Shown piece after piece: positions 26,620-56,123 of a stretch of DNA of 64,000 nt. The position numbers and the translations under genes are program-made. Within the stretch, counting starts at the first letter, position 1; each line of letters opens with the position of its first letter. The DNA comes from Kibdelosporangium philippinense (lineage in GTDB: Bacteria > Actinomycetota > Actinomycetes > Mycobacteriales > Pseudonocardiaceae). The DNA lies in assembly GCF_021390435.2 (NCBI RefSeq), contig NZ_JAJVCN010000002.1, positions 2,356,001 to 2,420,000 on the forward strand, in the 5' to 3' direction. The notes under the pieces are model-generated. The model was not told the DNA's origin. It was given only the letters and a program-made list of their open reading frames with translations, and made no database searches.

Positions 26620-27033
26620 CCATGTCGCCACTGCGACGGACACTAATCCAGTGGTGTGAGAAAAATGTGACGTGATAGGCCGCAGGATTGGCGCAGGCTC
26701 GCCAGTGTCCATTGATCGCCGCCGTGAGACGGGTGACCTCGAGTCGAAACGCCAGCCCGCCAGCATGTCCACAGTAGACTAAGCGGTGAGCGAAAGCGCG
26801 GATCGCGTAGTGGTGGCTGGGATCGCCCAGATGCATCGTCCTTGCACTGGCGGCAACCGCGCTGTGTGGCTCACTACGATGGAACGATCACGCCACATGC
26901 TGCGGAGGCCCTTAGCCGCGGCAAATGGGTTCCCGGGTGGGTAGTGGTGCCGCAGTGGCATGTTACGTTTGCGCAACGGGTAGCTGGATCTCCTCGTACG
27001 CAACGAGGTCCGTGTGGCGGGAGGCGGTCAGCG
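26620..27033. promoter_or_regulatory. divergent control region of two AfsR-like genes
   Basis: 414 bases between head-to-head regulator genes. Apart from a TGTCC-N5-type element at 26766-26780 I see no clear palindrome. Both genes' frames are open into it, but those stretches are not protein-like. Confidence 0.4.
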
Positions 27034-29358
27034 ATGGCCCCGCTCGGGTCGTTAGCTGCGGAGTCGACGAGTTTCGTCGGGCGGCGTGAAGAACTCGCGC
27101 ACGCACGGGACTTGCTGGCGACGAGCCGGTTGTTGACCTTGACCGGGCCTGGTGGTGTGGGCAAGACCCGGCTGGCGTTGCGGACTGCCCGGACGGTGAT
27201 GCGGGCGTTCTCCGACGGCGCGCACCTGGTGCAGCTGCAGGACTTGCGGGATCCCGGCCTGCTGCCGCAGACGGTGGCCGCAGAGCTGGGATTGCGTGAT
27301 ATGGGTCCTGAGCCCATGGCCCGGGTGGTGGAGTTTCTCCGCGACAGGTCGTTGCTGCTGGTGATGGACAACTGCGAGCACCTGGTTCGGCCTTGTGGGC
27401 TGCTGGTCAGCAGGGTGCTGACGGCTGCGGCCGGGGTGCGGGTGCTGGCCACTAGCCGCGATGTGCTGCGGGTGTACGGGGAGCATTTGCTTGCGGTGCG
27501 GCCGTTGCCGGTGCCGGAACCGTCGGCGACACGTGTGCCGGGGGCCGGTGATGCAGTTACGTTGCTGGCGCATCGGGCGGCCTCGGTCGACCCGGGGTTC
27601 GAGGTAGGGCCCGCCAACCTGGCGGCGGTGACCGCCATCTGCCGGCTGCTGGACGGGATACCACTGGCGATCGAACTGGTCGCGGCACGCATGCGGACCT
27701 TGTCCGTGGAACAGGTCCTGCGGCACCTCGACGACAGGTTCGGTTTCCTCAGCAATGAGCATTCCGGACGGCCGTCGCGCCAGCGGACGCTGGCGGCGAC
27801 GGTGGAGTGGAGTCACGAGCTGTGTTCGCCGGCGGAGCAGGCGATGTGGGCGCGGTTGTCGGTGTTCAGTGGCGGGTTCACGCTCGACGCGGCCGAAGCG
27901 GTGGCCAGCGAGGCCTCGCTGGAGGACGAGCCATTGGACGTGATCCACAGCCTGATGGACAAGTCCATTCTGATTCGCGACGACAACGCGTCGGTGGTGC
28001 GGTACCGGATGTTGGAGACGCTGCGCGAGTTCGGGATGACCAAGCTGGTCGAGGCCGGTGAGAAGCCGGTGTTCCAACGCAGGCACCAGCACTATTTCCT
28101 CGACGTGGCTGAGCGATTCGCCGAGGACTGGACGGGGCCGGAGCAGCCGCGGGTGTTCGCCACGACCCGGCGCGAACACGCGAATCTGCGGTCCGCTCTG
28201 GACTTCAGCCTGAGCGAACCCCAGGACACACAGATCGTGGCGCGATTTGCCGTCGCGTTGCAATACTATTGGCATTTTGGCTTCTACAGTGAAGCGCTGC
28301 GGTGGCTCGAGCGAGTGCTGGCGATCGGCTCGTTGACTGCGGCGGTCCGGATCGAGTTGTTGTGGACCAGCACTCTCCTGGCGGGCATATGCGGAGACTT
28401 GCCCCTCGCTGCCATGCGAAGCCAGGAAGCCATGGCCATGGCGCGGTATCTGGACGACGACTACCTGCTGGGGACAGCCTTGCTGACCAAGGCGATTGCC
28501 GCTCTCCACAGCGATGACCACGCCAATGCCGATGTCTACTTCACCCGATGCATCGAGCTCTTCGAGCGATCCGGCCGGCACGATACGAAAACGATCGTTG
28601 CGCAATGCTCGCACGCGATGGCCACGACGCTCGCCGGCGATGGGGGACGAGCGGTCGAGTTGGCACAGCAGGCCGTCCGGATCGCGGAAACTTTCGGTGA
28701 TCCGGCCACCCGAGGCTTTGCCTGGTACACGCTCGCCATGGCCGAGTGGCGTGCCGGTCACCTAGTGGAGGCCACCGGCCACGCGATGGCGAGCCTGCGC
28801 GTCAAACTCGGGCACGATGACGAGATCATCGGACGGGCCATGCTCGTGGAACTGCTGGCCTGGATCGCCGGTGCACAGCACGCGGATGAGCGCGCTGCCT
28901 GGCTGCTCGGGCTCACCAGCCGGGCATGGCGGGACGCGGGCGTCACGGTGCTGTTCGGCTCCGAGAGCTGGCTGCAACCGCATCAGGCCTGTGCGGAACA
29001 AGCCCAGCGGACGCTGGGCACGCAGGCATTTCAGGCGGCCTTCGAGGCGGGGGCATCCCGTGACGTCGATCTCGACCAGGCACTGACAGACCTGGTGAAC
29101 GAGCATGCAGCCGCCACCACCCCAGCCGGGGCGGCAGCCGATACCCGCGCCGGGCAGCCACAGGCGTTGACACCCCGGGAGCTCCAGGTCGCCGAGCTGA
29201 TCGCGCGAGGCCTGACGAACAAGGAGATCGCCGCCAGACTGCTCATCGCCCAACGCACGGCCGAAGGCCACGTGGAACGCATCCTCACCAAACTCGGTCT
29301 CACCACCCGCACCCACATCGCGGTGTGGATCACCCAACACCGCATGCAGGGCCCATGA
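27034..29358 (+). CDS. AfsR/LuxR-type STAND ATPase regulator (second full-length copy)
   Basis: 774 residues from ATG 27034, which has GGAGG ten bases upstream. The order is AAESTSFVGRREEL, P-loop GPGGVGKT, Walker B LLLVMDNCEHL, PLAIELVAARMRTL, a TPR-like region, then a LuxR HTH (TPRELQVAELIARGLTNKEIAARL, part, and TAEGHVERILTKLGL). It is the same architecture as the gene at 24322 but clearly diverged, so the cluster arose by old duplications. Confidence 0.88.
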   Translation: MAPLGSLAAESTSFVGRREELAHARDLLATSRLLTLTGPGGVGKTRLALRTARTVMRAFSDGAHLVQLQDLRDPGLLPQTVAAELGLRDMGPEPMARVVEFLRDRSLLLVMDNCEHLVRPCGLLVSRVLTAAAGVRVLATSRDVLRVYGEHLLAVRPLPVPEPSATRVPGAGDAVTLLAHRAASVDPGFEVGPANLAAVTAICRLLDGIPLAIELVAARMRTLSVEQVLRHLDDRFGFLSNEHSGRPSRQRTLAATVEWSHELCSPAEQAMWARLSVFSGGFTLDAAEAVASEASLEDEPLDVIHSLMDKSILIRDDNASVVRYRMLETLREFGMTKLVEAGEKPVFQRRHQHYFLDVAERFAEDWTGPEQPRVFATTRREHANLRSALDFSLSEPQDTQIVARFAVALQYYWHFGFYSEALRWLERVLAIGSLTAAVRIELLWTSTLLAGICGDLPLAAMRSQEAMAMARYLDDDYLLGTALLTKAIAALHSDDHANADVYFTRCIELFERSGRHDTKTIVAQCSHAMATTLAGDGGRAVELAQQAVRIAETFGDPATRGFAWYTLAMAEWRAGHLVEATGHAMASLRVKLGHDDEIIGRAMLVELLAWIAGAQHADERAAWLLGLTSRAWRDAGVTVLFGSESWLQPHQACAEQAQRTLGTQAFQAAFEAGASRDVDLDQALTDLVNEHAAATTPAGAAADTRAGQPQALTPRELQVAELIARGLTNKEIAARLLIAQRTAEGHVERILTKLGLTTRTHIAVWITQHRMQGP

Positions 29359-42496: not shown

Positions 42497-43007
42497 GGCC
42501 CTGTCTCCCTCCCTGGTGCGGCGCGGCCGGTGTCATATCCAGTGTCGCATGGAGCGCCGCGGTCAGCACCGCCTCGCTACCCTCAGCAACCACCAGTCGG
42601 CTGAGTGCGGAGCGGTGAGATCACCGTACTGGATACCGCGGCGGCGTGTCCCTGGAAGGACCGTTCGAGGTCCTACTGTCCGTCGGCGGCGAGATCGATC
42701 TCAGCACGCGCCGCAACTCGAAGCCCAGTCGGATAAGGCACGTCATTGACCGGTTAAGGTCAAATGGCGAAGACACGTCACGCTGTGGAGCCGATGACGC
42801 CTTCTGAAACGGGTGACGCTCGCTGATGCTCGACGACCACAGCTCGGTACCCACAGCCGCGCAGATCCATGCCTGGGCTGTCGCTGTCCTCGTTCGCCGC
42901 CGAGCGGACCTGGCCGGATGTGACGCTGGCCAGAGGTTGACGTCGGTTGGGGCGTGAGTTCGGCGGGTCTGCGCAGAGCTGTCCGAGGGTCGCGTAATAA
43001 TTGGACG
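42497..43007. other. intergenic region before the Wadjet operon
   Basis: About 510 bases. A GTG frame at 42646-42807 encodes EVLLSVGGEIDLSTRRNS, which resembles the first strand-helix of a STAS anti-anti-sigma domain, but it ends after 53 residues and is probably a relic. The Wadjet promoter should lie in the last 150 bases; I see no clear operator. Confidence 0.35.
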
Positions 43008-44540
43008 GTGGTGGCCGAACAGAGCACGGAGCCGCAGCCGTTCGCGCACTTGAGCGCGAAGAACGCGGCGCTCTATCGGGATGTGCTGTTGGCATTCGCG
43101 CGGGCGAGGGATCGCTTCATCGTGCATATGCGGCCAGAGGACATCGCGGGGGAACTGTCCCGGCCGGGCGATATTGAGGGGATCGCGGCGGCGCTGGAAC
43201 AGCTGGTCGAATGGGGGAATCTGCGGGCGGATCCGGACACGAGCCGGGTGACCAGCGTTGCGGACTTTCATCGGGCTCGCTACCTGTATCAGCTCACCGC
43301 GGCGGGGCAGGCGGCTGAGGAAGCGCTTGCGGTTTACGACGAGGCGTTGGGTCGCCGGGGTTCCTTGCAGTCGGTGGCCTTGGAGGACATCGCCGGGCAG
43401 TTGCGGGCGCTGGCGGAGATGACCACTGCCGACGATCTCGATCCTGCCAAGGTGCATCTTCTTCTGCTCGCGCTTGCCGAGCGGTTCACGGGGCTGGCGG
43501 ACAACGCGCAGGCGTTCATGGCGTCGCTGCGGCGGGTCATCGATTTCGCCGATGGTGATGTGGACGCGTTCATCGCTTACAAACAACAGTTGATCGACTA
43601 CGTCAACAAGTTCATCGCGGATCTTGCCAACCGGGGCGCGGAAATCGCCGCTCTCCTCGGCCGGATCGCCGATGTCGAGCGGCTGCTGAAAGTCGCTGCC
43701 AGGCGTGAGGCGGCTGATGCCGCGCCGGACGCTCGTGAGAATGCCATAGAGGCATGCCTGGACGCGTGGCGCAACCGGTGGCGCGGGCTGCACGACTGGT
43801 TCGTGTCGGCCGATTCCCGGCATCTGTCGCAGGCGCGGTTGCTGCGTGGCGCCGCCGTTACGGCGATCACTCAACTGATCGATACGGTAGCCGTGCTCAA
43901 CGAGCGTCGCTCTGGACGGTCCGATCGTTCGGCTGATTTCCGTGCGCTGGCAAGGTGGTTCGCGGAGGCACCGGACGACGCAGCGGCGCATCGGTTGTGG
44001 CGGGCGGCTTTTGGGCTCAACTCGGCCAGGCATCTCACTGTCACCCAGGAAACCGTTGCGGCATGGGAAGAAGAGCAGCCGGGTATGCCGTGGCGGCTCG
44101 CTTCCGGAGTGCGGATCAGCCCGCAGTTACGCAGGACCGGTGCGTACGAGCGACGCGGCCAGCCGAATCGGGTAGTCGACAGGGCCGCACAACGGCAGAT
44201 CCTCGCCGAGCAAGCCGCGCAGGAGTCCGAGCAGGCGGCCGAGGCGCGTTTGCGTCTCGCGACACCAGGGCCGATCCCATTGTCCCAGATCGGAAGGCTC
44301 GACACCTGGGCGTTCCGGCTCTTCCTCGGCCTGCTCGGCGATGCGCTGTCGGCCCGGTTGCCGGGCGACTCCGAGGTACGGACGACCACCAGCGACGGCA
44401 CGATGGAGGTTCGGATGAGCGTCGTCCGTGGTGGCGGCACAGTGCGAATCGAGACCGAGGACGGGGTGCTTCGCGGCCCGGAACACCTGATCGAGATCGT
44501 CGATCTCACGGCACGAGAGCGGGCAGAGGCGATCGCATGA
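43008..44540 (+). CDS. jetA: Wadjet JetA (DUF2397/TIGR02677)
   Basis: 510 residues from the GTG pair at 43008/43011 (the frame is open from 42954). The sequence is a kleisin-like subunit: winged-helix-like N-terminus (FAHLSAKNAALYRDVLLAF, RPEDIAGELSRP), long helices, and DIEGIAAALEQLVEWGNL. JetA bridges the SMC heads of JetC and binds JetB. The stop overlaps jetB as ATGA. Identity rests on gene order plus family resemblance: DUF2397, DUF2398, SMC-like, DUF2399 is the standard line-up of this Wadjet type. Confidence 0.85.
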   Translation: MVAEQSTEPQPFAHLSAKNAALYRDVLLAFARARDRFIVHMRPEDIAGELSRPGDIEGIAAALEQLVEWGNLRADPDTSRVTSVADFHRARYLYQLTAAGQAAEEALAVYDEALGRRGSLQSVALEDIAGQLRALAEMTTADDLDPAKVHLLLLALAERFTGLADNAQAFMASLRRVIDFADGDVDAFIAYKQQLIDYVNKFIADLANRGAEIAALLGRIADVERLLKVAARREAADAAPDARENAIEACLDAWRNRWRGLHDWFVSADSRHLSQARLLRGAAVTAITQLIDTVAVLNERRSGRSDRSADFRALARWFAEAPDDAAAHRLWRAAFGLNSARHLTVTQETVAAWEEEQPGMPWRLASGVRISPQLRRTGAYERRGQPNRVVDRAAQRQILAEQAAQESEQAAEARLRLATPGPIPLSQIGRLDTWAFRLFLGLLGDALSARLPGDSEVRTTTSDGTMEVRMSVVRGGGTVRIETEDGVLRGPEHLIEIVDLTARERAEAIA

Positions 44541-45721
44541 CCATGCTCGCCGACGACATCATCGTCCAACAGCGAAAGGCTATGCGGGTGTTGCTGGCCA
44601 AGCCGTTGTTGACTGCGGGGGCGGATGACGAGGTCTTGCGGCTGGTTCGGCGGCACGCATCGGACCTACGGACCTGGCTGGCGACCGAGACCGGTTGGCG
44701 TCTCGTCGTCAGCGCGGAATCCGCGCGGCTCTTCAAGACCACTCCGACCTTGGCCGACGATACCCATCCGGCCAGCGACGGCAAGGGCAAGCCGCCGTTC
44801 GGGCGTCGCAGGTATGTGTTGCTGTGCCTGGCATTGGCTGTGCTGGAGCGCGCCGACGCGCAGATCACGCTCGGCCGTCTCGCCGAAGGTGTGCTGGCTG
44901 CCGCAGGTGAGCCGGAACTCGTGAACGCCGGTGTGTCGTTCACGCTCAGCAGGCGCGACGAGCGCTCGGATCTGGTCGCCGCGGTGCGTCTGCTGCTCAC
45001 ATGGGGTGTGCTGGAACGAGTCGCCGGTGACGAGGACGCATACCTGAGCGACAGCGGCGACGTGCTGTACGACGTGCAGCGGCGGGTGCTGGCCGCGATC
45101 CTGACCGGAAACCGTGGCCCGTCGACCGTCGCTGCGGACGATTTCGAAGGCAGGCTCGAAGAACTCACGCATGAAGCGGTGGCGGACACCGACGATCTGC
45201 GTAACCGTTCACTGCGCCATCGGCTCACCCGTCGGCTGCTCGACGAGCCCGTGGTCTACTACGACGAACTGACCGACGACGAGCGCGGATACCTTGTGGG
45301 TCAACGACATGCGATCACGCGGCGGATCGAGGACGCCACCGGTCTGGTCACCGAGATGCGTGCCGAGGGCATCGCAATGGTCGACCCGGACGACGAGTTG
45401 ACCGACGTACGAATGCCGGAGCAGCGCACCGACGGCCACGTCACCCTGCTGATCGCTGAATACCTTGCGACGCAGAACGGGCCTGTGCCGCTTGAGAAGT
45501 TGCGCGCGCATGTGCGGAAGATGGCTCAGGAGCACAAGTCCTACTGGCGGCGCGGCGTCACCGAACCAGGGGCCGACGTGGAACTGCTGGCCATCGCGCT
45601 GAACAAGCTGCGAGCACTGCGACTTGTCGAAGACTCGGCATCCGAAATGGTGGTCGCCCGCCCGGCGATCGGCCGGTACAGGATGCAAGCACCGACGATC
45701 CGCGAAAGGGCGAAGAGGTGA
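44537..45721 (+). CDS. jetB: Wadjet JetB (DUF2398/TIGR02678)
   Basis: 394 residues. Characteristic segments are RRHASDLRTWLATETGW, RYVLLCLALAVLERADAQITL and DEPVVYYDELTDDERGYL, as in the TIGR02678 family. It is the KITE-like winged-helix subunit that binds the JetA kleisin. Start ATG 44537 overlaps the jetA stop by 4 bases, and its own stop overlaps the jetC GTG (GTGA), so the four subunits are made in fixed order. Confidence 0.88.
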   Translation: MTMLADDIIVQQRKAMRVLLAKPLLTAGADDEVLRLVRRHASDLRTWLATETGWRLVVSAESARLFKTTPTLADDTHPASDGKGKPPFGRRRYVLLCLALAVLERADAQITLGRLAEGVLAAAGEPELVNAGVSFTLSRRDERSDLVAAVRLLLTWGVLERVAGDEDAYLSDSGDVLYDVQRRVLAAILTGNRGPSTVAADDFEGRLEELTHEAVADTDDLRNRSLRHRLTRRLLDEPVVYYDELTDDERGYLVGQRHAITRRIEDATGLVTEMRAEGIAMVDPDDELTDVRMPEQRTDGHVTLLIAEYLATQNGPVPLEKLRAHVRKMAQEHKSYWRRGVTEPGADVELLAIALNKLRALRLVEDSASEMVVARPAIGRYRMQAPTIRERAKR

Positions 45722-48700
45722 TCCCGCACCGGAATCGCTGGCAGCCGCTGCGCGCGGGCCTGGTCGACCTCTTCTACTACGATATCGAGGAGTTCCACTT
45801 TCACGACGGCCGGTTGTTGCTGCGCGGCAACAACGGGACGGGCAAGTCCAAAGTGCTCGCTCTCACCTTGCCGTTCCTGCTCGACGGCGAACTGTCGGCA
45901 CATCGCGTCGAACCGGACGGCGACCGCAACAAGCGGATGGAGTGGAACCTGCTGCTGGGCGGGAAGCATCCGCACAACGAGCGCCTCGGCTACACGTGGC
46001 TGGAGTTCGGCCGTGTCCTGCCCGACGGCGGTACGGAATACCGCACGATCGGCTGCGGTCTGAAAGCCGTTGCCGGACGCGGAATCGCACGGCACTGGTT
46101 CTTCGTCACCAGTCAACGGATCGGCCACGAGCTGTCGCTGGTCGGCCCGACCAGGGTGGCGCTGAGCAGAGAGAAGCTCAAGGATTCCCTTGACGGGCAT
46201 GGAATGGTGTACGACACGGCGTCGGAGTACCGGCGCGCGGTGGACGAGGCGCTGTTCGGGCTCGGGACGCATCGCTACGAGGCACTCGTCAACCTGCTGA
46301 TCCAGCTACGGCAGCCGCAACTGTCCAAGAAACCGGACGAGAAGCTGCTTTCCCGCGCGCTCACCGAGGCGCTCCCGCCGCTCGATCCGGCGCTGATCAC
46401 GACTGTGGCTGAGGCGTTTCGCGGTCTGGACGAGGAACGCGAAGCATTGCGCGGCCTCGCTGACGCGAAGTCGGCTGCGGAAGCGTTCCTCACGCACTAT
46501 CGGCGCTATGCGCATATCGCGGCCAAACGCCGCGCGGCACCACCCCGGCAGACGCACAGCCGTTACGAACAGCTGGGGCGTGACCTGGGCGAGGCTGATG
46601 CCGCGTATGAGACGGCGACACAAGCGCTCGACCAGGCACAACGACTGCTGGACGAGCTGGCTGAGGCGAAAGCCCAACTGGAGGCGCGGCGGGCCGCGCT
46701 GCAGGACAGCCCCGAGATGCGAGACGCGGAGGCGCTGAAGCAAGCCGGTGCGGATGCCGAAAGGTTGGACAAGTTCGCGAAATCCCGGGAGCGCGACTAT
46801 GTCTCGGTTGTGGAAACCACGCGGCGCAGGGAAGAGCAGGCGACGCGAGCGCGCCACGCGGCCGGTACCGACGAAGAAGTCTTCGAGCGAGCCAAAAACG
46901 TCGCACAGGATGCCGCTGAGGCCGCGCGCGTCGCCGACGGTCACGCCGCCGTCATCGCGGATGCCGACGAACGGGCCGGTGCCGCGCTCGTCACACGGCA
47001 GACCAAAGCGGTCGACGGCCTGCAGCAGCTGCTCAGCGCGGCAGCGCGGGCCGAAGCAACCCTGCGTTCAGCGCGCGAGGACGTCGACCGGATCACCGCT
47101 GAGCAGCAGGCCGCCGACGAACGGATCGCAATCGCCGACGGGGTGACGGCCGGGCGTGGCACTGAGCTTGTGGCTGCCTACACCGCCTATCTGGTAAGTG
47201 CGACCACGTTCCGTGTGTCTGATGTAGACGATATGCTCGCGGCATTGGACGCGTGGGTGGAGACGCTCGACGGCCCCAACCCCGCGGCATCGGTGGTGGA
47301 TGACGCGGTCATGCGTGCGACAGAAGAACTCGGGCGCAGGCAGGCCGCGATCGAAGCCGAGCAAGGCTCGGTCCATGCCGAGCGGGAAGCCGTCGTCGAC
47401 GAGATCGAACGACTGGAAGCGGGCGGGCACGACGCGCCGCCGAAGCCTTACACGCGCGACGAAGGAGCACGGGATGGCCGCCCTGGTGCTCCACTGTGGA
47501 AGGTCGTCGATTTCGTCGCGGGAATGAGCGACGAACACCGCGCCGGTCTGGAAGCGGCGTTGGAGGCTGCGGGAATCCTGGATGCCTGGGTCACCCCGGA
47601 CGGCGAACTGCAAAGCACAGTCACCGGTGACGTCATGATCGTGCCTGGTGACGCCGCGCCGGCAGGCGGCTTGACCGCCGTGCTCGCTCCGGCTGTGGAC
47701 CGGGCTGACCCGCTGGCCGCCGTGCTCACCGACGACGCGGTCACCTCGGTATTGCGAGCGATCGGTCTGGGACCAGGCGCGCGGACGTGGGTCGCGGTCG
47801 ACGGCAGGTTCGCTGTCGACGTGCTGACCGGGGCCTGGCACAAGGAATCTGCCGGTTACATCGGTGAGGGTGCCCGGGAGGCGGCACGCCGGGCCCGGAT
47901 CCAGCGACTGCGCGAAGACTTGACGCTGTTGGATCGTCGTCTTGCCGAACTTGCCGTCGCCGCAGTCGAATTGAGCGCCAATCGGGACGCTCTTGCCGCC
48001 GAGCACCAGAAACAGCCGAAGGACAACGAACTGCGCGAGGCGCATGTCAAGCTCGCGGCCGAGCACGAGGCGAAGCGGCGCGTTGACGCACGGCTGAACG
48101 AAGCCGTTGTCACACTTGGCCAACGGGCCGAGGAGGCCGACAGAGCTCGCGCCGCGGCCACCGAGTTCGCCGGTGATGTCGGTCTGCCGGTCGACCCGGA
48201 TGAGCTCGCCGTTGTCCGGGCCGCGATCGGCGACTACCGAGTGGCGCTTGCCGCATTGTGGCCCGCAGCAAGGGCATTGGACCGCGCGCGGACGAGTCTG
48301 GCTGAGGCGGAACAAGAGTTGCTGACCGCGGTGGAGCACCGCGAGCAGACAAGCGAGGCGGCGACCAGCGCCCGCGCCGAAGCTGAGGTCGCGGCCGAAC
48401 GGCACCGGGTTCTGGTCGAGACAGCTGGTGCGGGCGTCGAGGAGCTGTATCGGAAGTTGGACGCCGTAGCCAACGAACTGACCGAGCGAGACAAGCGGGA
48501 GCACGAGGCACGGGCCGCGGAGCGGACAGCACTTGTGATGCGCGGCGAGGCTGACGGCAGTCGCATGCGGCTGCGCGAGTCGATTTCGATCGCTGCAGCC
48601 GAGCGCGATCGAGCCATTGCCCAACTACGCGCCTTTGCTCAGACCGGTCTGCTCACGACCGCCCTTCCTGACCTGGATTTCCCTGATCCCACAACGGAAT

Positions 48701-49746
48701 GGTCGCCGAACCCGGCAGTGGCGCTCGCGCGTTCGATCAATGCGGCGCTGGACGACGTCGATGACACGGACCGACGATGGGAGCTGATCCAGCAGCGCGT
48801 CTCGACCGAACACAAGCTGCTCACGGACGCGCTGTCCACGCACGGTCATTCGGTCGGCATGACGGTACGAGACGGAGTCATCGTCGTCGATGTGCTGTTC
48901 CAAGGGCGTTCGCAGGACATCCCCACGCTGGTTTCCGCGCTGGCGAAGGAAACCGAGCAACGGGCAACGCTTCTGTCCGCCAAAGAGCGCGAGATCCTGG
49001 AAAACCACCTCATCAACGAGGTAGCTGGCACGCTGCAGGAGCTGATCAGCAACGCCGAGGACCAGGTCCGCGCGATCAACTCCGATCTGGAGGAACGACC
49101 GACGTCAACCGGCATGCGCCTGAGACTGCAGTGGCGCACCTCCCGTACCGCGCCCGATGGGCTCGGCCAGGTGCGGGATCGGCTGCTGCGGCAGACCGCG
49201 GACGCGTGGAGCGTGGCCGACCGCGCGACCGTCGGCGCGTTCCTGCAAGAGCAGATCAACCGCGAGCATGCCGAGGATCTGGCGGGCGGCTGGGTGGAGC
49301 AGCTGACCCGTGCGCTGGACTACCGGTCCTGGCACGAGTTCGCGATCCAGCGCTACCAGGACGGCCAGTGGCGGCCGGCCACAGGTCCGGCATCCGGTGG
49401 CGAGCGGGTGCTGGCCGCGTCCGTACCGCTGTTCGCCGCGGCCTCGTCGTTTTACTCGTCGTCGGCCAATCCGTACACGCCACGGCTGGTCGCACTCGAC
49501 GAGGCGTTCGCCGGTGTCGACGACGACTCACGCGCGAAGTGTCTCGGTCTGCTGGCCGCGTTCGACCTTGACGTCGTGATGACCAGCGAACGCGAATGGG
49601 GGTGCTACCCGCAGGTGCCAGGGCTGGCGATCGCTCAGCTCGCGCGCCGGGACGGGATCGATGCGGTGCTGGTGACCCCGTGGCGGTGGGATGGACGCGA
49701 ACGCAGGCAGGTGGAACGCACAGTCCCGTACATCCCAGTTGCGTAA
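45718..49746 (+). CDS. jetC: Wadjet JetC, SMC-like ATPase (TIGR02680)
   Basis: 1342 residues. Walker A GNNGTGKS at residues 37-44, the ABC signature SGGER at about 1225, and Walker B VALDEAFAG at about 1258 with the catalytic Glu are all intact. Between them are two long coiled-coil arms and a hinge-like segment (about 575-720). It is the motor that extrudes DNA loops so that small circular DNA can be recognised and cut. GTG start at 45718. Confidence 0.92.
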   Translation: MIPHRNRWQPLRAGLVDLFYYDIEEFHFHDGRLLLRGNNGTGKSKVLALTLPFLLDGELSAHRVEPDGDRNKRMEWNLLLGGKHPHNERLGYTWLEFGRVLPDGGTEYRTIGCGLKAVAGRGIARHWFFVTSQRIGHELSLVGPTRVALSREKLKDSLDGHGMVYDTASEYRRAVDEALFGLGTHRYEALVNLLIQLRQPQLSKKPDEKLLSRALTEALPPLDPALITTVAEAFRGLDEEREALRGLADAKSAAEAFLTHYRRYAHIAAKRRAAPPRQTHSRYEQLGRDLGEADAAYETATQALDQAQRLLDELAEAKAQLEARRAALQDSPEMRDAEALKQAGADAERLDKFAKSRERDYVSVVETTRRREEQATRARHAAGTDEEVFERAKNVAQDAAEAARVADGHAAVIADADERAGAALVTRQTKAVDGLQQLLSAAARAEATLRSAREDVDRITAEQQAADERIAIADGVTAGRGTELVAAYTAYLVSATTFRVSDVDDMLAALDAWVETLDGPNPAASVVDDAVMRATEELGRRQAAIEAEQGSVHAEREAVVDEIERLEAGGHDAPPKPYTRDEGARDGRPGAPLWKVVDFVAGMSDEHRAGLEAALEAAGILDAWVTPDGELQSTVTGDVMIVPGDAAPAGGLTAVLAPAVDRADPLAAVLTDDAVTSVLRAIGLGPGARTWVAVDGRFAVDVLTGAWHKESAGYIGEGAREAARRARIQRLREDLTLLDRRLAELAVAAVELSANRDALAAEHQKQPKDNELREAHVKLAAEHEAKRRVDARLNEAVVTLGQRAEEADRARAAATEFAGDVGLPVDPDELAVVRAAIGDYRVALAALWPAARALDRARTSLAEAEQELLTAVEHREQTSEAATSARAEAEVAAERHRVLVETAGAGVEELYRKLDAVANELTERDKREHEARAAERTALVMRGEADGSRMRLRESISIAAAERDRAIAQLRAFAQTGLLTTALPDLDFPDPTTEWSPNPAVALARSINAALDDVDDTDRRWELIQQRVSTEHKLLTDALSTHGHSVGMTVRDGVIVVDVLFQGRSQDIPTLVSALAKETEQRATLLSAKEREILENHLINEVAGTLQELISNAEDQVRAINSDLEERPTSTGMRLRLQWRTSRTAPDGLGQVRDRLLRQTADAWSVADRATVGAFLQEQINREHAEDLAGGWVEQLTRALDYRSWHEFAIQRYQDGQWRPATGPASGGERVLAASVPLFAAASSFYSSSANPYTPRLVALDEAFAGVDDDSRAKCLGLLAAFDLDVVMTSEREWGCYPQVPGLAIAQLARRDGIDAVLVTPWRWDGRERRQVERTVPYIPVA

Positions 49747-50975
49747 TGGCTGATCTTGACCGCCTCCGCAGGCTGCTCAGCGGCGAGGACACCGCGTGGC
49801 TGCTCGATCGCATGCGCCGCCGGCTCGCGAACGGCAAGCCGCTGAGTGGCGTTGTCACTCTCACTTCGGTTACCCAAGACCAGCGGCGGGCCGTCGAACG
49901 GTTACTTGGCAGGCGAGCCGGCACCGGTACATCGCTGACCGTGTCGCTCGACGAACTGGATACCGTGTTGCGCCGCAGCGGTGCCGCGCCGGACGGACTC
50001 GTTGATGCTGTGCGGCTGCTGATCGGTGCCGTGCCGGAGCGCGCGGTGGAGGTCGCGGCATGGTCGGCGGTCTACGTGCCGCTGGACGAACTGGTTGCGC
50101 GACGTCCGGTGCTGGGCGTGTGGCGGACGTGGCTCGATGCCACCGGCATGGTGCGCAAGCTCGCACCCGACCCCGAAACGGCGTCGACGCTGATCATGTC
50201 AGTGGTGCAGGTCCTCGCTAAACTGCCCTCGGACGGCGTCGGACTCGGCAGGCTTGCCGCCCAGACCACCGGGGACGCGCACGGCCTGGACGATGGGCGG
50301 CCACTGACGACTCTTGTGCTGTCCGCGGCCAGAGTTCTCGCCGGATCGCCACCGACCGGCGACGGCTCGGCTGCCGAGCGACGCGCCGCGTGGGCGGCGG
50401 TCGGCGTGCACCGCGACGAGTTGTCGTCGTCCGTTCTGTGCCTCGGCCTTCCGGGTGGCACTGGGACTGTGACGGGCAGGATGCTGAGCCTGGCTCGTGA
50501 AGGTGGCGAGCCGTGTGTGCTGACGTTGCGCCAGTTGGGCCAGATCGATCTCGAAGTCGGCCGCGGCTTGGTCTGGGTATGTGAGAACCCGAGCGTGCTC
50601 GCGGCGGCAGCCGATGAGCTCGGCCCGGAATGTCCGCCGATGGTGTGCGTGAACGGTCAACCCTCAGCAGCGGTGTGGCGGCTGCTGGACCTGCTTGCGG
50701 CGGACGGTGCCCAGTTGATGTATCACGGTGACTTCGACTGGGGCGGGCTGCGGATCGGCAACGCTTTGCGTGAGCGGATCCCTTGGCAGCCATGGCGTTT
50801 CGACGCGGCCGCATACCAGGCGGCAGACGTGACCGGCGGTGAGCTGACCGGAAGGCCGGTGGATGCCACATGGGACCGTGACCTCCGCCCAGCGTTGGAA
50901 CGGCGCGGCGTGCGCGTTGAGGAGGAACTGGTGCTCCCTGCTCTGATCAATGACCTACGCACAAACGTCTCGTAG
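49746..50975 (+). CDS. jetD: Wadjet JetD nuclease subunit (DUF2399/TIGR02679)
   Basis: 409 residues from ATG 49746 (TAATG overlap with jetC). The N-terminal arm is Arg-rich helical; the C-terminal half is Toprim-like with LMYHGDFDWGGLRIGNAL, in which DxD holds the metals for cleavage. JetD is the topoisomerase-VI-like nuclease that cuts plasmids after loop extrusion. The system is complete and no frameshift is seen, so it is probably active. Confidence 0.88.
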   Translation: MADLDRLRRLLSGEDTAWLLDRMRRRLANGKPLSGVVTLTSVTQDQRRAVERLLGRRAGTGTSLTVSLDELDTVLRRSGAAPDGLVDAVRLLIGAVPERAVEVAAWSAVYVPLDELVARRPVLGVWRTWLDATGMVRKLAPDPETASTLIMSVVQVLAKLPSDGVGLGRLAAQTTGDAHGLDDGRPLTTLVLSAARVLAGSPPTGDGSAAERRAAWAAVGVHRDELSSSVLCLGLPGGTGTVTGRMLSLAREGGEPCVLTLRQLGQIDLEVGRGLVWVCENPSVLAAAADELGPECPPMVCVNGQPSAAVWRLLDLLAADGAQLMYHGDFDWGGLRIGNALRERIPWQPWRFDAAAYQAADVTGGELTGRPVDATWDRDLRPALERRGVRVEEELVLPALINDLRTNVS

Positions 50976-51638: not shown

Positions 51639-53717
51639 GTGGTGAGTCTGTCGTTTGGTCCGATACGTGCGCGCCGGTTCGTGGGCCGGGTGGATGTCCG
51701 CAGCGGTATTCGCACTGCAGTCATTCGCAGCCGCAGTGGTGGGCAGGCGAGCCCGATCTTCGTGCACGGTATTCAGGGACTTGGCGCATCGGCGCTGGCT
51801 TTTCGGGTCCACGAGGACGATCCGGACTTCTTCGGCCAGCTCATCTGGGTGTCCGCGCGGCATGCCGACGGCGAGCCGATGCCTATTGGGGAAATGGTGC
51901 GGTTCATCTTGCGGCGGCTTGGTGTCGCTGCCGCTGATCAGGAATCATCGCTGCCCGACTTGTTGGAGGAGTACCAACGGGTTGCGAGGACCCAACGGTT
52001 CATGGTCGTCCTCGACGACGTGACGGACACGCAACCGGTGGAGTTGCTCGTGCCGTCGAACGCGCCCGAGGTGGTGGTCTTGGTGACCACGCGAGTGCGA
52101 ATGCAATCGTTGCTCCGATCCGACTTCGAGGAGATTCGACTGGAGCGGCTTCTGGCTGCCGAGTCGGAGGAGTTGTTTCGCGACAAGCTGGGCGGCACCG
52201 CCGACAAGATTGATACCGCAGTTGTGGCGGAGTTGGCCTCCTTCGGAGGTGGTATCCCGCTCGTGCTCGTGCTGATGGCGGGACACGTCGTGGGGCGTCC
52301 GCACGTGGCTGACCGGCTGGTGACTGACCTGCGGAGTTCGCTGAGTTACCTGTTCCGCCTTGACGAGGAGCAACGGATGCCCAAGTGGTTGGACCTTGCG
52401 GTCGCCCGCCTGTCTCCCGAGCTGTCGGCCCGCTATCCGATCTTGTCGCTGATCCCCGGATCAGACTTCAGCATTGAAACGGCTGCCGTGGCGCTGGGCG
52501 TCGACGTCGACGAGGCGGGTCGGATGCTGGACGACCTAGTCGAGATCAACCTATTGGTCCGCAACTCCGATGCTCCCCAGAGGTTGCGATACGCGTTCTA
52601 CTCGATCGTGCGCGCGGATGCCGAGGCCCGCGTCAAACGGGGCACGGGGATCGACACGGCAGAGGTGGTTCTTCGGGTTTGTACCGCCTTTCTGGAGCAG
52701 ACAGCATTGAATGACCTGGCGTTGTCCGGCCGGTGGCGGGTGGGGCCCGTGTTCGTCTGGTTGCGAAACCTGGTCACCGAGATCGGAGTGTCCGTCGGCC
52801 GGGAAGAGGCGTTGGCCTGGTTTGAGCGGGAATGGTTGAACGTGGCGGCCTGTGTGCGCGCGGCAAAGCTGGCAGGGCTGCACGAGGAAGCGACGCAGCT
52901 TTGTGTGGCGCTGTTCAAGTATGTCCACCTGAACAAGTTGGTGGATGTGTGGATCAACGTGCACAACGACGGTCTGGACTCCGCTCGGACGTTGAGCGAC
53001 CAGTTGGCCATCATGCAGCTCAGCAATCAGCGCGGCGCCGGCCACCTGGAGGTGGGGAATTATCAGGCAGCTCGCCGGGACTTCGAGGAGTCGTTGCAGG
53101 CCGCGCGGGCAGCACAACTGCAACTGGGGCCGCGTGATCCGCTCTTTCCGATGGCCGTGATCGGCGAGCAGAGCGCCCTGGAATGGCTGGGTAAGGTCAC
53201 CGCTGCCGAACGCGACCCTGTCGCGTTGGACTATTACGACCAGTCCTGGGCGGTGCTGGAGCGTCCCGATGACCAGGTCGATCCGGATCAGAAGAAACGG
53301 GCGTTCGCGACGCTTCGGCTGCAACGCGCACGGTTCTTCGTGGTGTTTGAGGACTGGTCCCGCGCCGTCTCGGAGATCGAGCCTGCTTTTGCGTACTTCG
53401 ATGGGACCGCGGAGCTGGACAACCAGGCCAAGTGTCTGGTCACCTGGGGCCAGGCGCACATCGGCGGCGGACAGGCCGCGAAGGCGCTGGTGCGCTTTGA
53501 GCGCGCTGCGGACCTCCTTGGCAGGAACTCTGCCGGGCGCGAGTACGCGTTGGTCATGGAGATGGTCGGCGACGCGGCACTGGCAGCCGAGGACATCCAC
53601 CGTGCCACCGACGCGTTCCGTACCTCGCTCGACATCCTCGACAAGATCGGTTCACCGCAGGCCGACCGGATCCGTACGAAACTTGCACCGCTGCTCAACG
53701 CCGATCACAACGACTAG
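51639..53717 (+). CDS. NB-ARC/STAND-like protein with TPR tail and degenerate P-loop
   Basis: 692 residues. An NB-ARC-like module fills about 10-300: RRFVGR at the N-terminus, a P-loop position reading GIQGLGAS (44-51) in which the Lys is replaced by Ala, Walker B FMVVLDDV (121-128), the sensor LVTTRVR (149-155) and GGGIPL, a GxP motif. Residues about 400-690 are TPR-like helical repeats (GNYQAARRDFEESLQ). In STAND proteins such repeats sense ligands, and many act in phage defence. Here no effector domain is visible at the N-terminus, and nucleotide binding may be weak. The GTG starts at 51639/51642 follow GGTGGGG. Confidence 0.75.
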   Translation: MVSLSFGPIRARRFVGRVDVRSGIRTAVIRSRSGGQASPIFVHGIQGLGASALAFRVHEDDPDFFGQLIWVSARHADGEPMPIGEMVRFILRRLGVAAADQESSLPDLLEEYQRVARTQRFMVVLDDVTDTQPVELLVPSNAPEVVVLVTTRVRMQSLLRSDFEEIRLERLLAAESEELFRDKLGGTADKIDTAVVAELASFGGGIPLVLVLMAGHVVGRPHVADRLVTDLRSSLSYLFRLDEEQRMPKWLDLAVARLSPELSARYPILSLIPGSDFSIETAAVALGVDVDEAGRMLDDLVEINLLVRNSDAPQRLRYAFYSIVRADAEARVKRGTGIDTAEVVLRVCTAFLEQTALNDLALSGRWRVGPVFVWLRNLVTEIGVSVGREEALAWFEREWLNVAACVRAAKLAGLHEEATQLCVALFKYVHLNKLVDVWINVHNDGLDSARTLSDQLAIMQLSNQRGAGHLEVGNYQAARRDFEESLQAARAAQLQLGPRDPLFPMAVIGEQSALEWLGKVTAAERDPVALDYYDQSWAVLERPDDQVDPDQKKRAFATLRLQRARFFVVFEDWSRAVSEIEPAFAYFDGTAELDNQAKCLVTWGQAHIGGGQAAKALVRFERAADLLGRNSAGREYALVMEMVGDAALAAEDIHRATDAFRTSLDILDKIGSPQADRIRTKLAPLLNADHND

Positions 53718-53748: not shown

Positions 53749-54246
53749 TCATGAGTCAACCGAGGCGATATCAGCACGCATCGCCTGCCGGACGGTGACG
53801 ACCCTCTGATCGAAACTGTCGACAGCGTCCATGACCACCTGGCTAGCCGCACCATTGAGCCGTACTGTCGTCAGTCGCTCGGCGCGCTCCATGACCGCAG
53901 GGAGACTTTCGTCAGCGACCTTCGGCGCACGCAACTCGATGATCGACGCCGCCTCACGTAGCGCAGCGACCAGAGACCCAATGTCCGCGGAGGTGGCGGA
54001 TGCTCGGACGGATGCGTCGCGCAGCGTTCGAGCGGCGACGAGAAACGTCGCGTAGCACTCCTCGCGACGCTTCCGATCGTCCTCGCGCCGCTGTTCGCCC
54101 CGCTCGTCGCGGCGTGCGTCGCGTTCAACGTGGGCGAGCTTGACCTGGCGGACGATGGCCATCCACTGCCCAGCCAGCGTCGTCGTCGAGCTCAGGACGG
54201 CGCTCAGGACGCCAACCATGATGGTGACCCACACCGATGTGGTCAT
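53749..54246 (-). CDS. small membrane-anchored coiled-coil protein
   Basis: 165 residues from ATG 54246 (GAGGAG region upstream). Residues about 4-26 (VTIMVGVLSAVLSS) form one transmembrane helix. A highly charged coiled coil (HVERDARRDERGEQRREDDR) follows, then a helical cytoplasmic domain. I recognise no family. It converges on the NB-ARC gene and is divergent from the repeat-bearing gene (80-bp gap), so it may share control with the latter. Confidence 0.7.
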   Translation of the reverse strand: MTTSVWVTIMVGVLSAVLSSTTTLAGQWMAIVRQVKLAHVERDARRDERGEQRREDDRKRREECYATFLVAARTLRDASVRASATSADIGSLVAALREAASIIELRAPKVADESLPAVMERAERLTTVRLNGAASQVVMDAVDSFDQRVVTVRQAMRADIASVDS

Positions 54247-54325
54247 TGCGCACCGCTCCTCGTGTCGTGCCCTGATGACGCCGGTAACGTAGCGGGTGAT
54301 CCGATTCCCCACAGGAGCGAGCACC

Positions 54326-55105
54326 GTGAACACTTCCTCGTGGGTGCGTGTGCCGGCCAGCCCGCATGGCGCCCGCTGGACCACGGTGTCCGTTCAGCGC
54401 CAGGTGCTAATTGTCGTGCATTCCGTGACCGCTTGGAACCGATTCGCCGACATACTCGACGTCTTCGAAGCCGACCGCAGGATTCAACTGATTTTCACCA
54501 CTCCGAATGCGTCTGCCATACAGGGCAACGTCGGGCACCTACTGCAACAACACGGCGCAGTGAGAATCCCCTGGGAACAGGCCATTCACACCGAGTTCGG
54601 CCTTGCATTGTCAGCCCACCATAGCGGCGACCTGCACGACATCAACGCGCCATTGGTTGTCCTGTCACACGGGATTGGGTATACTAAATATTCAACCCGG
54701 AAACCCGGAAACCCGGAAACCCGGAAACCCGGAAACCCGGAAACCCGGAAACCCGGAAACCCGGAAACCCGGAAACCCGGAAACCCGGAAACCCGGAAAC
54801 CCGGAAACCCGGTCCGTGTACGGGCTGTCCCAGCAGTGGCTCGTGCGCGATGGAGTTGTGATTCCCAGTGCAGTCGTGCTATCTCACGACGAGCAATACG
54901 GTCGACTTGCGGAGCTGACGCCGGATGCCTTGTCGGTCGCGGTCGTCGGCGGCGATCCGTGTTTCGATCGGATGCGTGCCAGCATCGCTCACCGAGCGCG
55001 TTACCGTGCAGTCTTGGGGGCGCACTCCGACACCACAGTGGTGGCCGTATCGTCGACCTGGGGATCGAACTCGTTACTCGGTCGTCATCTCGATCTCATA
55101 GGTGA
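54326..55105 (+). CDS. 5' half of a phase-variable GT-B-like protein (currently out of frame)
   Basis: GTG 54326 behind AGGAGCG starts a protein-like frame: RQVLIVVHSVTAWNRFADIL, IQLIFTTPNASAIQGNVG and LVVLSHGIGYTKYS. It then enters the octanucleotide tract (54694-54812), translated as KPGNPETR repeats, and leaves it in the wrong frame, running as Arg-rich nonsense to a stop at 55105. The real continuation is in the next frame (54816-56123). Adding one repeat unit, or removing two, would join both halves into one protein of about 600 residues. The halves look like the two domains of a GT-B-fold transferase. Confidence 0.7.
   Translation: MNTSSWVRVPASPHGARWTTVSVQRQVLIVVHSVTAWNRFADILDVFEADRRIQLIFTTPNASAIQGNVGHLLQQHGAVRIPWEQAIHTEFGLALSAHHSGDLHDINAPLVVLSHGIGYTKYSTRKPGNPETRKPGNPETRKPGNPETRKPGNPETRKPGNPVRVRAVPAVARARWSCDSQCSRAISRRAIRSTCGADAGCLVGRGRRRRSVFRSDACQHRSPSALPCSLGGALRHHSGGRIVDLGIELVTRSSSRSHR
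54694..54812 (+). repeat. octanucleotide tandem repeat (AAACCCGG), about 15 copies
   Basis: One 7-base partial unit (54694-54700) and 14 perfect AAACCCGG units (54701-54812). The unit length is not a multiple of three, and all three frames through it are free of stops. A slip of one unit therefore shifts the frame downstream without stopping translation in the tract. Confidence 0.95.
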
Positions 55106-56123
55106 CCTGCTGGCTGAACTGAGCATAGATGAGCATCTGGTAGCGGCGATCCTGCACCCGAATACCTGGTTCGCTCACGGACCCTTACAGATTCGTCATT
55201 GGTTGAGCGAATATTTGCGCGCCGGCTTGCGCCTGGTGCCGCCTGCGGTGGGCTGGCAGCACACCATTGTCGCGGCAGATGTCGTACTCGGTGACCATGG
55301 CGCGGTAACTGGATATTCTGCGGCCATCGGGCGCCCCACACTGCTGGCCACGTTCCCCGACCACGATGTTGCACCCGGCTCCGTCATCGAGGCCCTCGGC
55401 AAGTCCGCCCCGCACGTGGATTTCCGCCAATCGCTCCATGAACAACTGCACAGGGCCATTGGCGACTACGAACCGGATCAATTCCACACCGTCCGCGAGC
55501 TGACCAGCTCGATCCCCGACGAGTCAGCGCGGACCCTCCGGCAGGTCTTCTACCAACTGATGGACTTACCCGAACCGGATCGAGCTGCCGTCGTACGCCC
55601 CTTCGACCCCAGCGAACTCACCATCGAGGACGGCATCGCCTGCGCGGCCCTGGTGTCAGCTGAACTCTCCAGCGACGCCTCAGTTCACGTGACGAGGTGG
55701 CCAGCCGACGTAACGTCGCATCACTCAGCACTCCACGAAGCTGCGGACATCCACTTGGTCGTGCGCAGCGATCATCCGCAGCGAGACCTTCTCACCCACG
55801 CTGCCATCCTGACCCACCAGAACCCACCCAACGACATGCACGCCGATCAAGCTCTCGCCGAGATCATGGCCAACTACCCTGCATGCCGACTCGCCGTGGT
55901 GGCTAACAGCGAACGAACTGGTGTACTCCGACACCGCAACGGCGACACCGCAACAGCGGAGGTGGTCGACGGACCCGGCGACGTCGCCCTCGCCGGATCT
56001 GCCATCCACGCGTGGCTGGCCAGCGGCCGACCATGGCCAACACTTCCCGACAAGATCGTCATCACGCACGGCCCATTCCGGACATCGATCCAACTCAGCG
56101 TGACGGTGCCCATGGTCACATAG
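54816..56123 (+). CDS. 3' half of the phase-variable GT-B-like protein
   Basis: The frame that emerges from the repeat reads SVYGLSQQWLVRDGVVIPSA, VLSHDEQYGRLAEL, then VVAVSSTWGSNSLLGRHLDL, AAILHPNTWFAHGPLQIR and AADVVLGDHGAVTGYSAAIG. The SSTWG, HPN and GDHGAVT series parallels CDP-glycerol/teichoic-acid-type GT-B transferases (acceptor and nucleotide-binding loops). GTG 54816 could serve as an internal start, but has no good ribosome-binding site. The last 150 residues have no recognised family. The frame is intact to the stop at 56123, which argues for maintained selection. Confidence 0.7.
   Translation: MYGLSQQWLVRDGVVIPSAVVLSHDEQYGRLAELTPDALSVAVVGGDPCFDRMRASIAHRARYRAVLGAHSDTTVVAVSSTWGSNSLLGRHLDLIGDLLAELSIDEHLVAAILHPNTWFAHGPLQIRHWLSEYLRAGLRLVPPAVGWQHTIVAADVVLGDHGAVTGYSAAIGRPTLLATFPDHDVAPGSVIEALGKSAPHVDFRQSLHEQLHRAIGDYEPDQFHTVRELTSSIPDESARTLRQVFYQLMDLPEPDRAAVVRPFDPSELTIEDGIACAALVSAELSSDASVHVTRWPADVTSHHSALHEAADIHLVVRSDHPQRDLLTHAAILTHQNPPNDMHADQALAEIMANYPACRLAVVANSERTGVLRHRNGDTATAEVVDGPGDVALAGSAIHAWLASGRPWPTLPDKIVITHGPFRTSIQLSVTVPMVT

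Follow-up and report, generated by a model that had tools for sequence, protein, structure and literature searches.

In a 64,000-nucleotide stretch of the genome of Kibdelosporangium philippinense (Pseudonocardiaceae; contig NZ_JAJVCN010000002.1, positions 2,356,001 to 2,420,000, hereafter the window), an array of the 8-bp unit AAACCCGG, 14.9 copies long, divides a single gene into two halves that lie in different frames. The features of this locus, in window positions and 5' to 3', are:

54296..55105, + strand: reading frame of the N-terminal half (N-half) in the present OFF state, which traverses the tract and terminates at 55105
54313..54317, + strand: Shine-Dalgarno-like AGGAG, 8 nt 5' of the GTG at 54326
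54326..54691, + strand: N-half, 122 aa, with the C-terminal end HGIGYTKY and 59% identity over 120 aa to the relative L010
54680..54685, + strand: TATACT, a box resembling a -10 promoter element, in Tyr-Thr codons, 8 nt 5' of the tract
54694..54812, + strand: perfect, non-triplet tandem tract of 119 nt, AACCCGGA x 14.9, found by Tandem Repeats Finder (TRF) as one period-8 array
54816..56123, + strand: C-terminal half (C-half), 435 aa and a stop, in a frame one base off that of the N-half

The earliest start codon of the N-half frame lies at 54296, and 54326 is the likely start. A preliminary description of this DNA, made from the sequence alone, had given the gene a GTG start with a good ribosome-binding site, had seen it cut by about 15 octamer copies into halves in frames one base apart, and had called the present state OFF (out of frame); the AGGAG upstream of 54326, the TRF count and the reading frames all agree with it. 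The window copy is OFF in the present assembly. Gain of one unit or loss of two was said to rejoin the frame, and our computation gives the same two changes and, in addition, gain of four. Three consecutive AAACCCGG units occur in a single tract in the whole 12.05-Mb genome (8 contigs; 12 overlapping matches), and the reversed pattern occurs nowhere in it.

One gene with a fixed joint

A protein search with the C-half covered 60 genomes, the window's own included, and found matches in 25 of them, often in multiple copies (three in the window's genome, counting the window gene). The joint was compared in the 55 loci where both halves could be placed (one of them a duplicate), with seven loci lacking an N-half match set aside. 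A tract of 7- or 8-bp units lies exactly at the joint in 12 of the 55, and relatives with a tract at this site use other 7- or 8-bp units. The 42 unique loci that lack a tract at the joint have their halves in frame without exception, and 39 are stop-free; L026 and L043 have one stop each, and L068 is split by about 2 kb and has three stops. The interruption of L068 (G029:C1:5571500-5577500) resembles, in our reading, an insertion element. Since the halves share one frame in all 42 relatives that lack a junction tract, they belong to a single protein, in which the joint is a fixed site. The preliminary description had pointed to homologs without the repeat as a check on the join TKYS/VYG, and these are indeed continuous there; halves that are separate genes in homologs, which it had named among the findings that would refute its reading, did not turn up among the 42. 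The N-half was recovered in 94 unique loci, 45 with a junction tract and 49 without, and a class-wide search with a family profile found the family in 10 of 148 genomes.

Recurrence of tracts in the gene family

The repeat leads back to the gene when it is searched for blind to the gene. A scan for the pattern (AAAYCGG)x4 was positive in 31 of 297 Pseudonocardiaceae genomes, and the reversed pattern in none. We examined 30 tracts, each from a different genome, and every one belongs to the gene family, with 29 located at the junction and the other upstream of the N-half (second tracts in some positive genomes were covered only in part); the 31st positive genome, G016, has a junction tract (L020) known from the C-half search rather than from following up the pattern. 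In 584 kb of DNA, made up of the window, 19 neighborhoods chosen for their tracts and 140 kb of unselected DNA from the window's genome, there are 27 perfect arrays with a period of 7 or 8 and at least 3.5 copies, and each of the 27 is inside a family gene or immediately 5' of one. Of other arrays of period 4-12 the 584 kb has just one, a GGTC x5, and the unselected 140 kb holds no array. That the window's tract is the sole one of its unit in the genome and that 27/27 arrays sit at family genes rule out a chance array. At switch sites, separate scans of periods 5-11, 4-12 and 4-15 showed units of 7 and 8 bp alone.

The class-wide pattern (AAAYCGG)x3 occurs in 6 of 394 genomes and lies in the gene family in five of the six, and outside the order the family carries other units, such as CAGGAGT x13.4 and AGGGAACC x6.2. 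Among the 120 stretches listed by a bacteria-wide heptamer scan, nine hold the gene family, including those of Streptomyces lilacinus, Frankia and Nocardiopsis, each with the TANNNT box described below. Many unrelated bacteria are also among the matches listed, so we reject the idea that the heptamer is exclusive to this family in all bacteria; exclusivity holds in Pseudonocardiaceae (30/30 tracts) and mostly in the class (5/6 genomes). Wenzhouxiangella and its relatives, for example, have heptamer arrays outside the family (L128, L132, L145, L147, L159, L161, L213, L214, L230), at some loci with arrays of other 7-bp units alongside. Two copies of the family gene stand together in L114, L118, L121, L123 and L131, some of these loci with tracts in both.

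In a tree of 80 relatives, a single clade of 37 (support 99/95) takes in all 35 rows with a junction tract. The remaining two, L015 and L018, have no tract and are placed apart within the clade; they are in frame and read TACAAC, without a TANNNT. Both look like losses of the tract, and the linker of L015 looks to us like a decayed tract. Elsewhere in the tree the gene carries a tract at its 5' end (nine rows, at least four changes). The window's own genome has one such gene: L054 (G000:C2:1251200-1256000) carries 8.1 copies of the 8-bp unit AGGCCCGG after a TAAGAT. Across this range of lineages the switch looks as if it has been kept across actinomycete orders.

Frame states and selection on alleles

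We scored the frame state of 35 of the 36 unique junction alleles in the first set, L010 being excluded for N bases within its tract. Eighteen are in frame (ON) and 17 are OFF, compared with an expectation of one third ON (p=0.03). Tracts of fewer than six copies are ON in 7 of 8 cases, and those of at least six copies in 11 of 27 (p=0.42 against one third): long tracts in random frame and short ones ON are what slippage together with selection for the protein would predict. The matched halves are free of stops in 35/35 alleles, with C-halves open for 376-442 aa overall and 398-442 aa in the OFF alleles.

Two pairs of close relatives differ by a single heptamer that changes the state. L092 and L093 (96.0% identity over 1551 nt) have 5.43 copies, ON, and 6.43 copies, OFF; L097 and L102 (96.2% over 1578 nt) have 7.43 copies, ON, and 8.43 copies, OFF. 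The preliminary description had proposed counting units in sister strains, and sister genes do vary by whole units and in ON or OFF state. In the C-half, the ratio of nonsynonymous to synonymous substitution rates (dN/dS) is 0.29 and 0.37 for these two pairs respectively, 0.22 between two OFF genes, and 0.21-0.25 in three further pairs. The comparison thus shows one gene, whole-unit differences in close relatives, both states common, and intact halves. Three features of contingency loci are found together here: a perfect, non-triplet coding tract, whole-unit and state-changing differences between close relatives (at the species level), and OFF alleles that are intact (17/17 stop-free) and under purifying selection (dN/dS 0.21-0.37 over six pairs).

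A box before the tract

A TANNNT box, which the window shows as TATACT, falls in the Tyr-(Asn/Thr/Ser) codons of the HGxGY(N/T)K motif in 43 of the 45 unique loci with a junction tract, which begins 6-13 nt after it, and is present at the same place in none of the 49 loci without one. The two loci that have a tract and no box, the second gene of L131 and L016, have short tracts of 2.9 and 4.9 copies. Codon choice at the box is nearly uniform: AAT for 21 of 22 asparagines, ACT for 20 of 21 threonines and AGT for both serines, compared with 12.5% AAT (25/200) and 3.3% ACT (35/1064) elsewhere in the tract-bearing genes. In tract-less loci an asparagine at this position is always AAC (15/15; Fisher p=1.7e-9, with related genes counted as independent). 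GC content at third codon positions (GC3) is 0.04 versus 0.96 at the box codon, and neighboring codons are also lower in GC3. Given this bias among synonymous codons, the box is under selection at the level of DNA.

Of the 13 5'-end tracts listed, 12 have upstream DNA, and nine have a TANNNT 6-14 nt upstream, compared with a frequency of 1.4% at random positions of these loci, although a promoter region would carry such boxes anyway. The box may be a promoter. With the generally known -10 and -35 consensuses, we saw no signal of a -35 element: the mean match to TTGACA is 2.42 in loci with a tract and 2.67 in those without, and shifted controls range from 2.0 to 2.98. A minus-strand promoter in the same bases was considered and dropped, as the 5' tracts, in our reading, have only the plus-strand box in common. 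The T that completes the TANNNT also creates, in a different frame, a TAA stop that is inseparable from the box at the junction and has no evident use. The box may instead be a generic AT-rich melting element, and the lowered GC3 of the codons around it fits this, but the value at the box codon itself is extreme.

A transferase-like family

Pfam has no match to either window half at E up to 0.1, and its family PF04464 has none in the window's genome; seven relatives searched against NCBIfam gave no match, and one relative matched Epimerase_2 in Pfam. Profile comparison reaches further. In hhalign, the family against 13 actinobacterial PF04464 proteins (one pair of profiles) scored a probability of 83.9 and E 7.7e-6 over 232 columns, compared with 0.3 and E 0.2 for a reversed decoy, and the HG motif and a DYSS-like motif are collinear in the two families. 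We consider the family distant kin to the CDP-glycerol:poly(glycerophosphate) glycerophosphotransferases of the PF04464 superfamily, from which it differs in its weak or absent single-member Pfam matches, its longer C-terminal region and its usual neighbor, described below. PF04464 presumably has the type B glycosyltransferase fold (GT-B); together with the alignment, this would place the tract just after HG, where a frame shift would sever the presumed donor-binding half. The GT-B-like product suggested in the preliminary description is supported in this form.

Genomic neighborhood

The genes next to the switched gene in the window are:

42954-44537: Wadjet gene JetA2 (PADLOC)
45718-49743: Wadjet gene JetC2 (PADLOC)
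49596-50975: Wadjet gene JetD2 (PADLOC)
51639..53717, + strand: NB-ARC/TPR signal transduction ATPase with numerous domains (STAND), the usual neighbor of the family (Pfam NB-ARC, 2e-13)
53749..54246, - strand: small membrane protein, encoded divergently to the switched gene and recurring in part of the loci

The STAND open reading frame cluster is present in 20 of 20 neighborhoods, with direct phmmer matches in 18, and in our reading the STAND gene is convergent with the family gene in 16 of the 20, an arrangement that the window does not share. With queries taken from the neighborhoods, it is found next to the family gene in 71 of 94 loci, in flanks that mostly cover 1.5 kb on either side and in some cases more: 32/45 junction-tract, 10/12 5'-tract and 29/37 tract-less loci. 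In controls it appeared in 0 of 28 random 4.3-kb pieces of the window's own genome and at 4 of 38 far ends of 20-kb neighborhoods. The membrane protein forms two clusters of open reading frames, with three and four loci, whose kinship to each other is our reading; the window's copy has no match in Pfam or PADLOC.

The three Wadjet genes come directly before the module of STAND ATPase and transferase-like gene. In a PADLOC scan that covered the window's STAND ATPase, its membrane protein and the transferase-like relatives L039 and L015, none of the four matched a specific model, and the STAND relatives L115 and L108 gave a weak match to a general TPR model in PADLOC (L108 also to PDC-S01, 0.0085). 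A surface or anti-phage role would fit these surroundings, and the STAND partner and the Wadjet neighbor suggest a role against phages. Elsewhere in the window, 41930-42496 matches the PADLOC candidate model PDC-S03 (5.9e-23), and two large divergent genes at 24325-26772 and 26842-29355 match CARF3 models weakly in PADLOC, in a stretch of about 45 residues close to the C-terminus of each.

A candidate contingency locus and its alternatives

A slipped-strand contingency locus is, in our view, the probable explanation, at roughly 80%. On this reading the gene would encode a single transferase-like product, about 560 aa long, with a tract of 7- or 8-bp units directly after the conserved HG motif. 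Replication would add or drop whole units and so shift the frame: one third of tract lengths would give the full protein with a linker encoded by the repeat, and the others the N-terminal domain with a nonsense tail, a change that would be reversible inside a population. The enzyme may modify a cell-surface polymer, with the adjoining STAND ATPase as its partner. The box might favor local initiation or melting that destabilizes the tract, or give rise to transcripts that begin with it.

A broader proposal is that the tract and box are one unit: a promoter-like element, maintained within the coding sequence by rare synonymous codons, that would start transcription or open the DNA at the repeat and so serve hypermutability or tract-headed RNA. 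It would occupy two positions in a single gene family, in several actinomycete orders and with a free choice of unit sequence (AAACCGG, AAATCGG, CAGGAGT, AGGGAACC and others), and would switch a surface-polymer or defense module that includes the STAND ATPase. We put this forward tentatively, as a conjecture with somewhat less than even prospects.

Several observations weigh against the contingency reading or its biochemical part. The share of ON alleles, 18/35, is only modestly above one third and comes from related alleles, in counts made on the first set of junction loci, and the unit differences lie between species. Five of the nine relatives with a 5'-end tract (L024, L029, L036, L054, L060) have a stop that comes between the tract and the frame of the gene, so that the 5' tract there cannot work by simple frame change; in the other four the gene frame runs through it. 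PF04464 is weak in single relatives (8 of 31 match it at E up to 0.1, the strongest at 9.6e-4), falling short of the gathering cutoff of 22.1 bits to judge by the E-values, and in the PDB a sequence search found nothing beyond two weak matches, to napD (E 0.015 and 0.071).

The most serious alternative, which we consider unlikely, is that the tract is regulatory: the box would start transcripts headed by the tract, unit number would tune the level or the leader of the RNA, and the frame shift would be secondary. The near-constant box before junction tracts (43/45) and its presence, where upstream DNA is available, ahead of 9 of 12 tracts at the 5' end speak for this, as do the intervening stops in five 5'-tract relatives and the precedent of hmw1A, outlined in PMC8262952, where a heptamer tract lies at the -10 element and 5' untranslated region of promoter P2 and more repeats go with less transcript. 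However, box and tract are coding at the junction, so unit number fixes the frame there regardless; short tracts are in frame in 7 of 8 cases, as are the clade's two tract-less members; and the -35 signal is no higher than in controls.

We give little credence to the repeat number being an assembly error. Short-read assemblies do have difficulty here, as contigs terminating at the tract (G018 C537; G459 C82 and C78; G646 C50 and C64; G008 C70) and the N gap inside the tract of L010 indicate. However, near-whole-genome contigs hold both states (G085 OFF; G094, G283 and G300 ON), and miscounts could not produce the tract or the box. Equally improbable is that the halves are two genes, or that routine ribosomal or RNA-polymerase slippage always gives the full protein, as the open frames of both halves and the -10-like box 5' of the C-half might suggest. 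The single frame of the 42 relatives without a junction tract and the 7/8 short tracts in frame argue against both; in our reading, no start codon is conserved upstream of the C-half; and A runs in the units, by our reading, are at most four long. Runs of that length are poor substrates for homopolymer slippage. That the gene is dead, with a permanent break and OFF as decay, has nothing in its favor beyond the window copy being out of frame and is scarcely credible, given 17/17 OFF alleles with stop-free matched halves and open C-halves, a dN/dS of 0.22 between two OFF genes, and 18 ON alleles that carry tracts as well.

Comparison with known systems

The preliminary description held that switching by such repeats is rarely described in actinomycetes. 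Among the titles and abstract openings listed for the literature searched, we found no account of this gene family's tract or of heptamer or octamer switching in an actinomycete, which agrees with that statement; against it, phase variation of pglX in the Pgl system of Streptomyces coelicolor is known and, as outlined in PMC4365076, is attributed to a G tract. The pglX case is likewise a phase-variable repeat tract in an actinomycete, and differs in that its tract is homopolymeric and lies in another kind of gene. The heptamer repeats of Xanthomonas (GGGAATC) and Nostoc resemble the present tracts in their 7-bp units, in two to 26 copies, whereas here the repeats belong to one gene family and mainly to one site.

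The closest likeness to the combination of box and heptamer is found at hmw1A and hmw2A of Haemophilus influenzae. In the outline given by PMC8262952, the (ATCTTTC)n tract of hmw1A overlaps the -10 element of P2 and lies within its 5' untranslated region, so that P2 transcripts contain the tract; judged by sequence, a -10-like box stands just before the tracts here in the proportions given above for the two sites. The hmw tracts, however, lie in a promoter region and tune transcript level, whereas the junction tract is intragenic, and only the 5'-end tracts of the family resemble them in position. If the box is a cis-element that drives instability, the locus would offer a direct test of whether contingency loci encode signals that increase the rate at which they themselves mutate.

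Simple sequence repeat (SSR) contingency loci are a classical phenomenon (compare PMC2651432 and PMC11475388), and phase variation by multi-base repeats is described, in the summary of PMC11475388, mostly from pathogens with small genomes. Here the hosts are soil actinomycetes with large genomes, and the gene family appears built around a switch long kept at one exact site. Like the SSR contingency loci of Haemophilus, Neisseria and other bacteria, these genes have non-triplet coding units, frames set by whole units, and both states among relatives; unlike them, they are found in actinomycetes, use units of 7 or 8 bp alone, carry the tract in mid-gene with a promoter-like box before it, and belong to one family that spans several orders.
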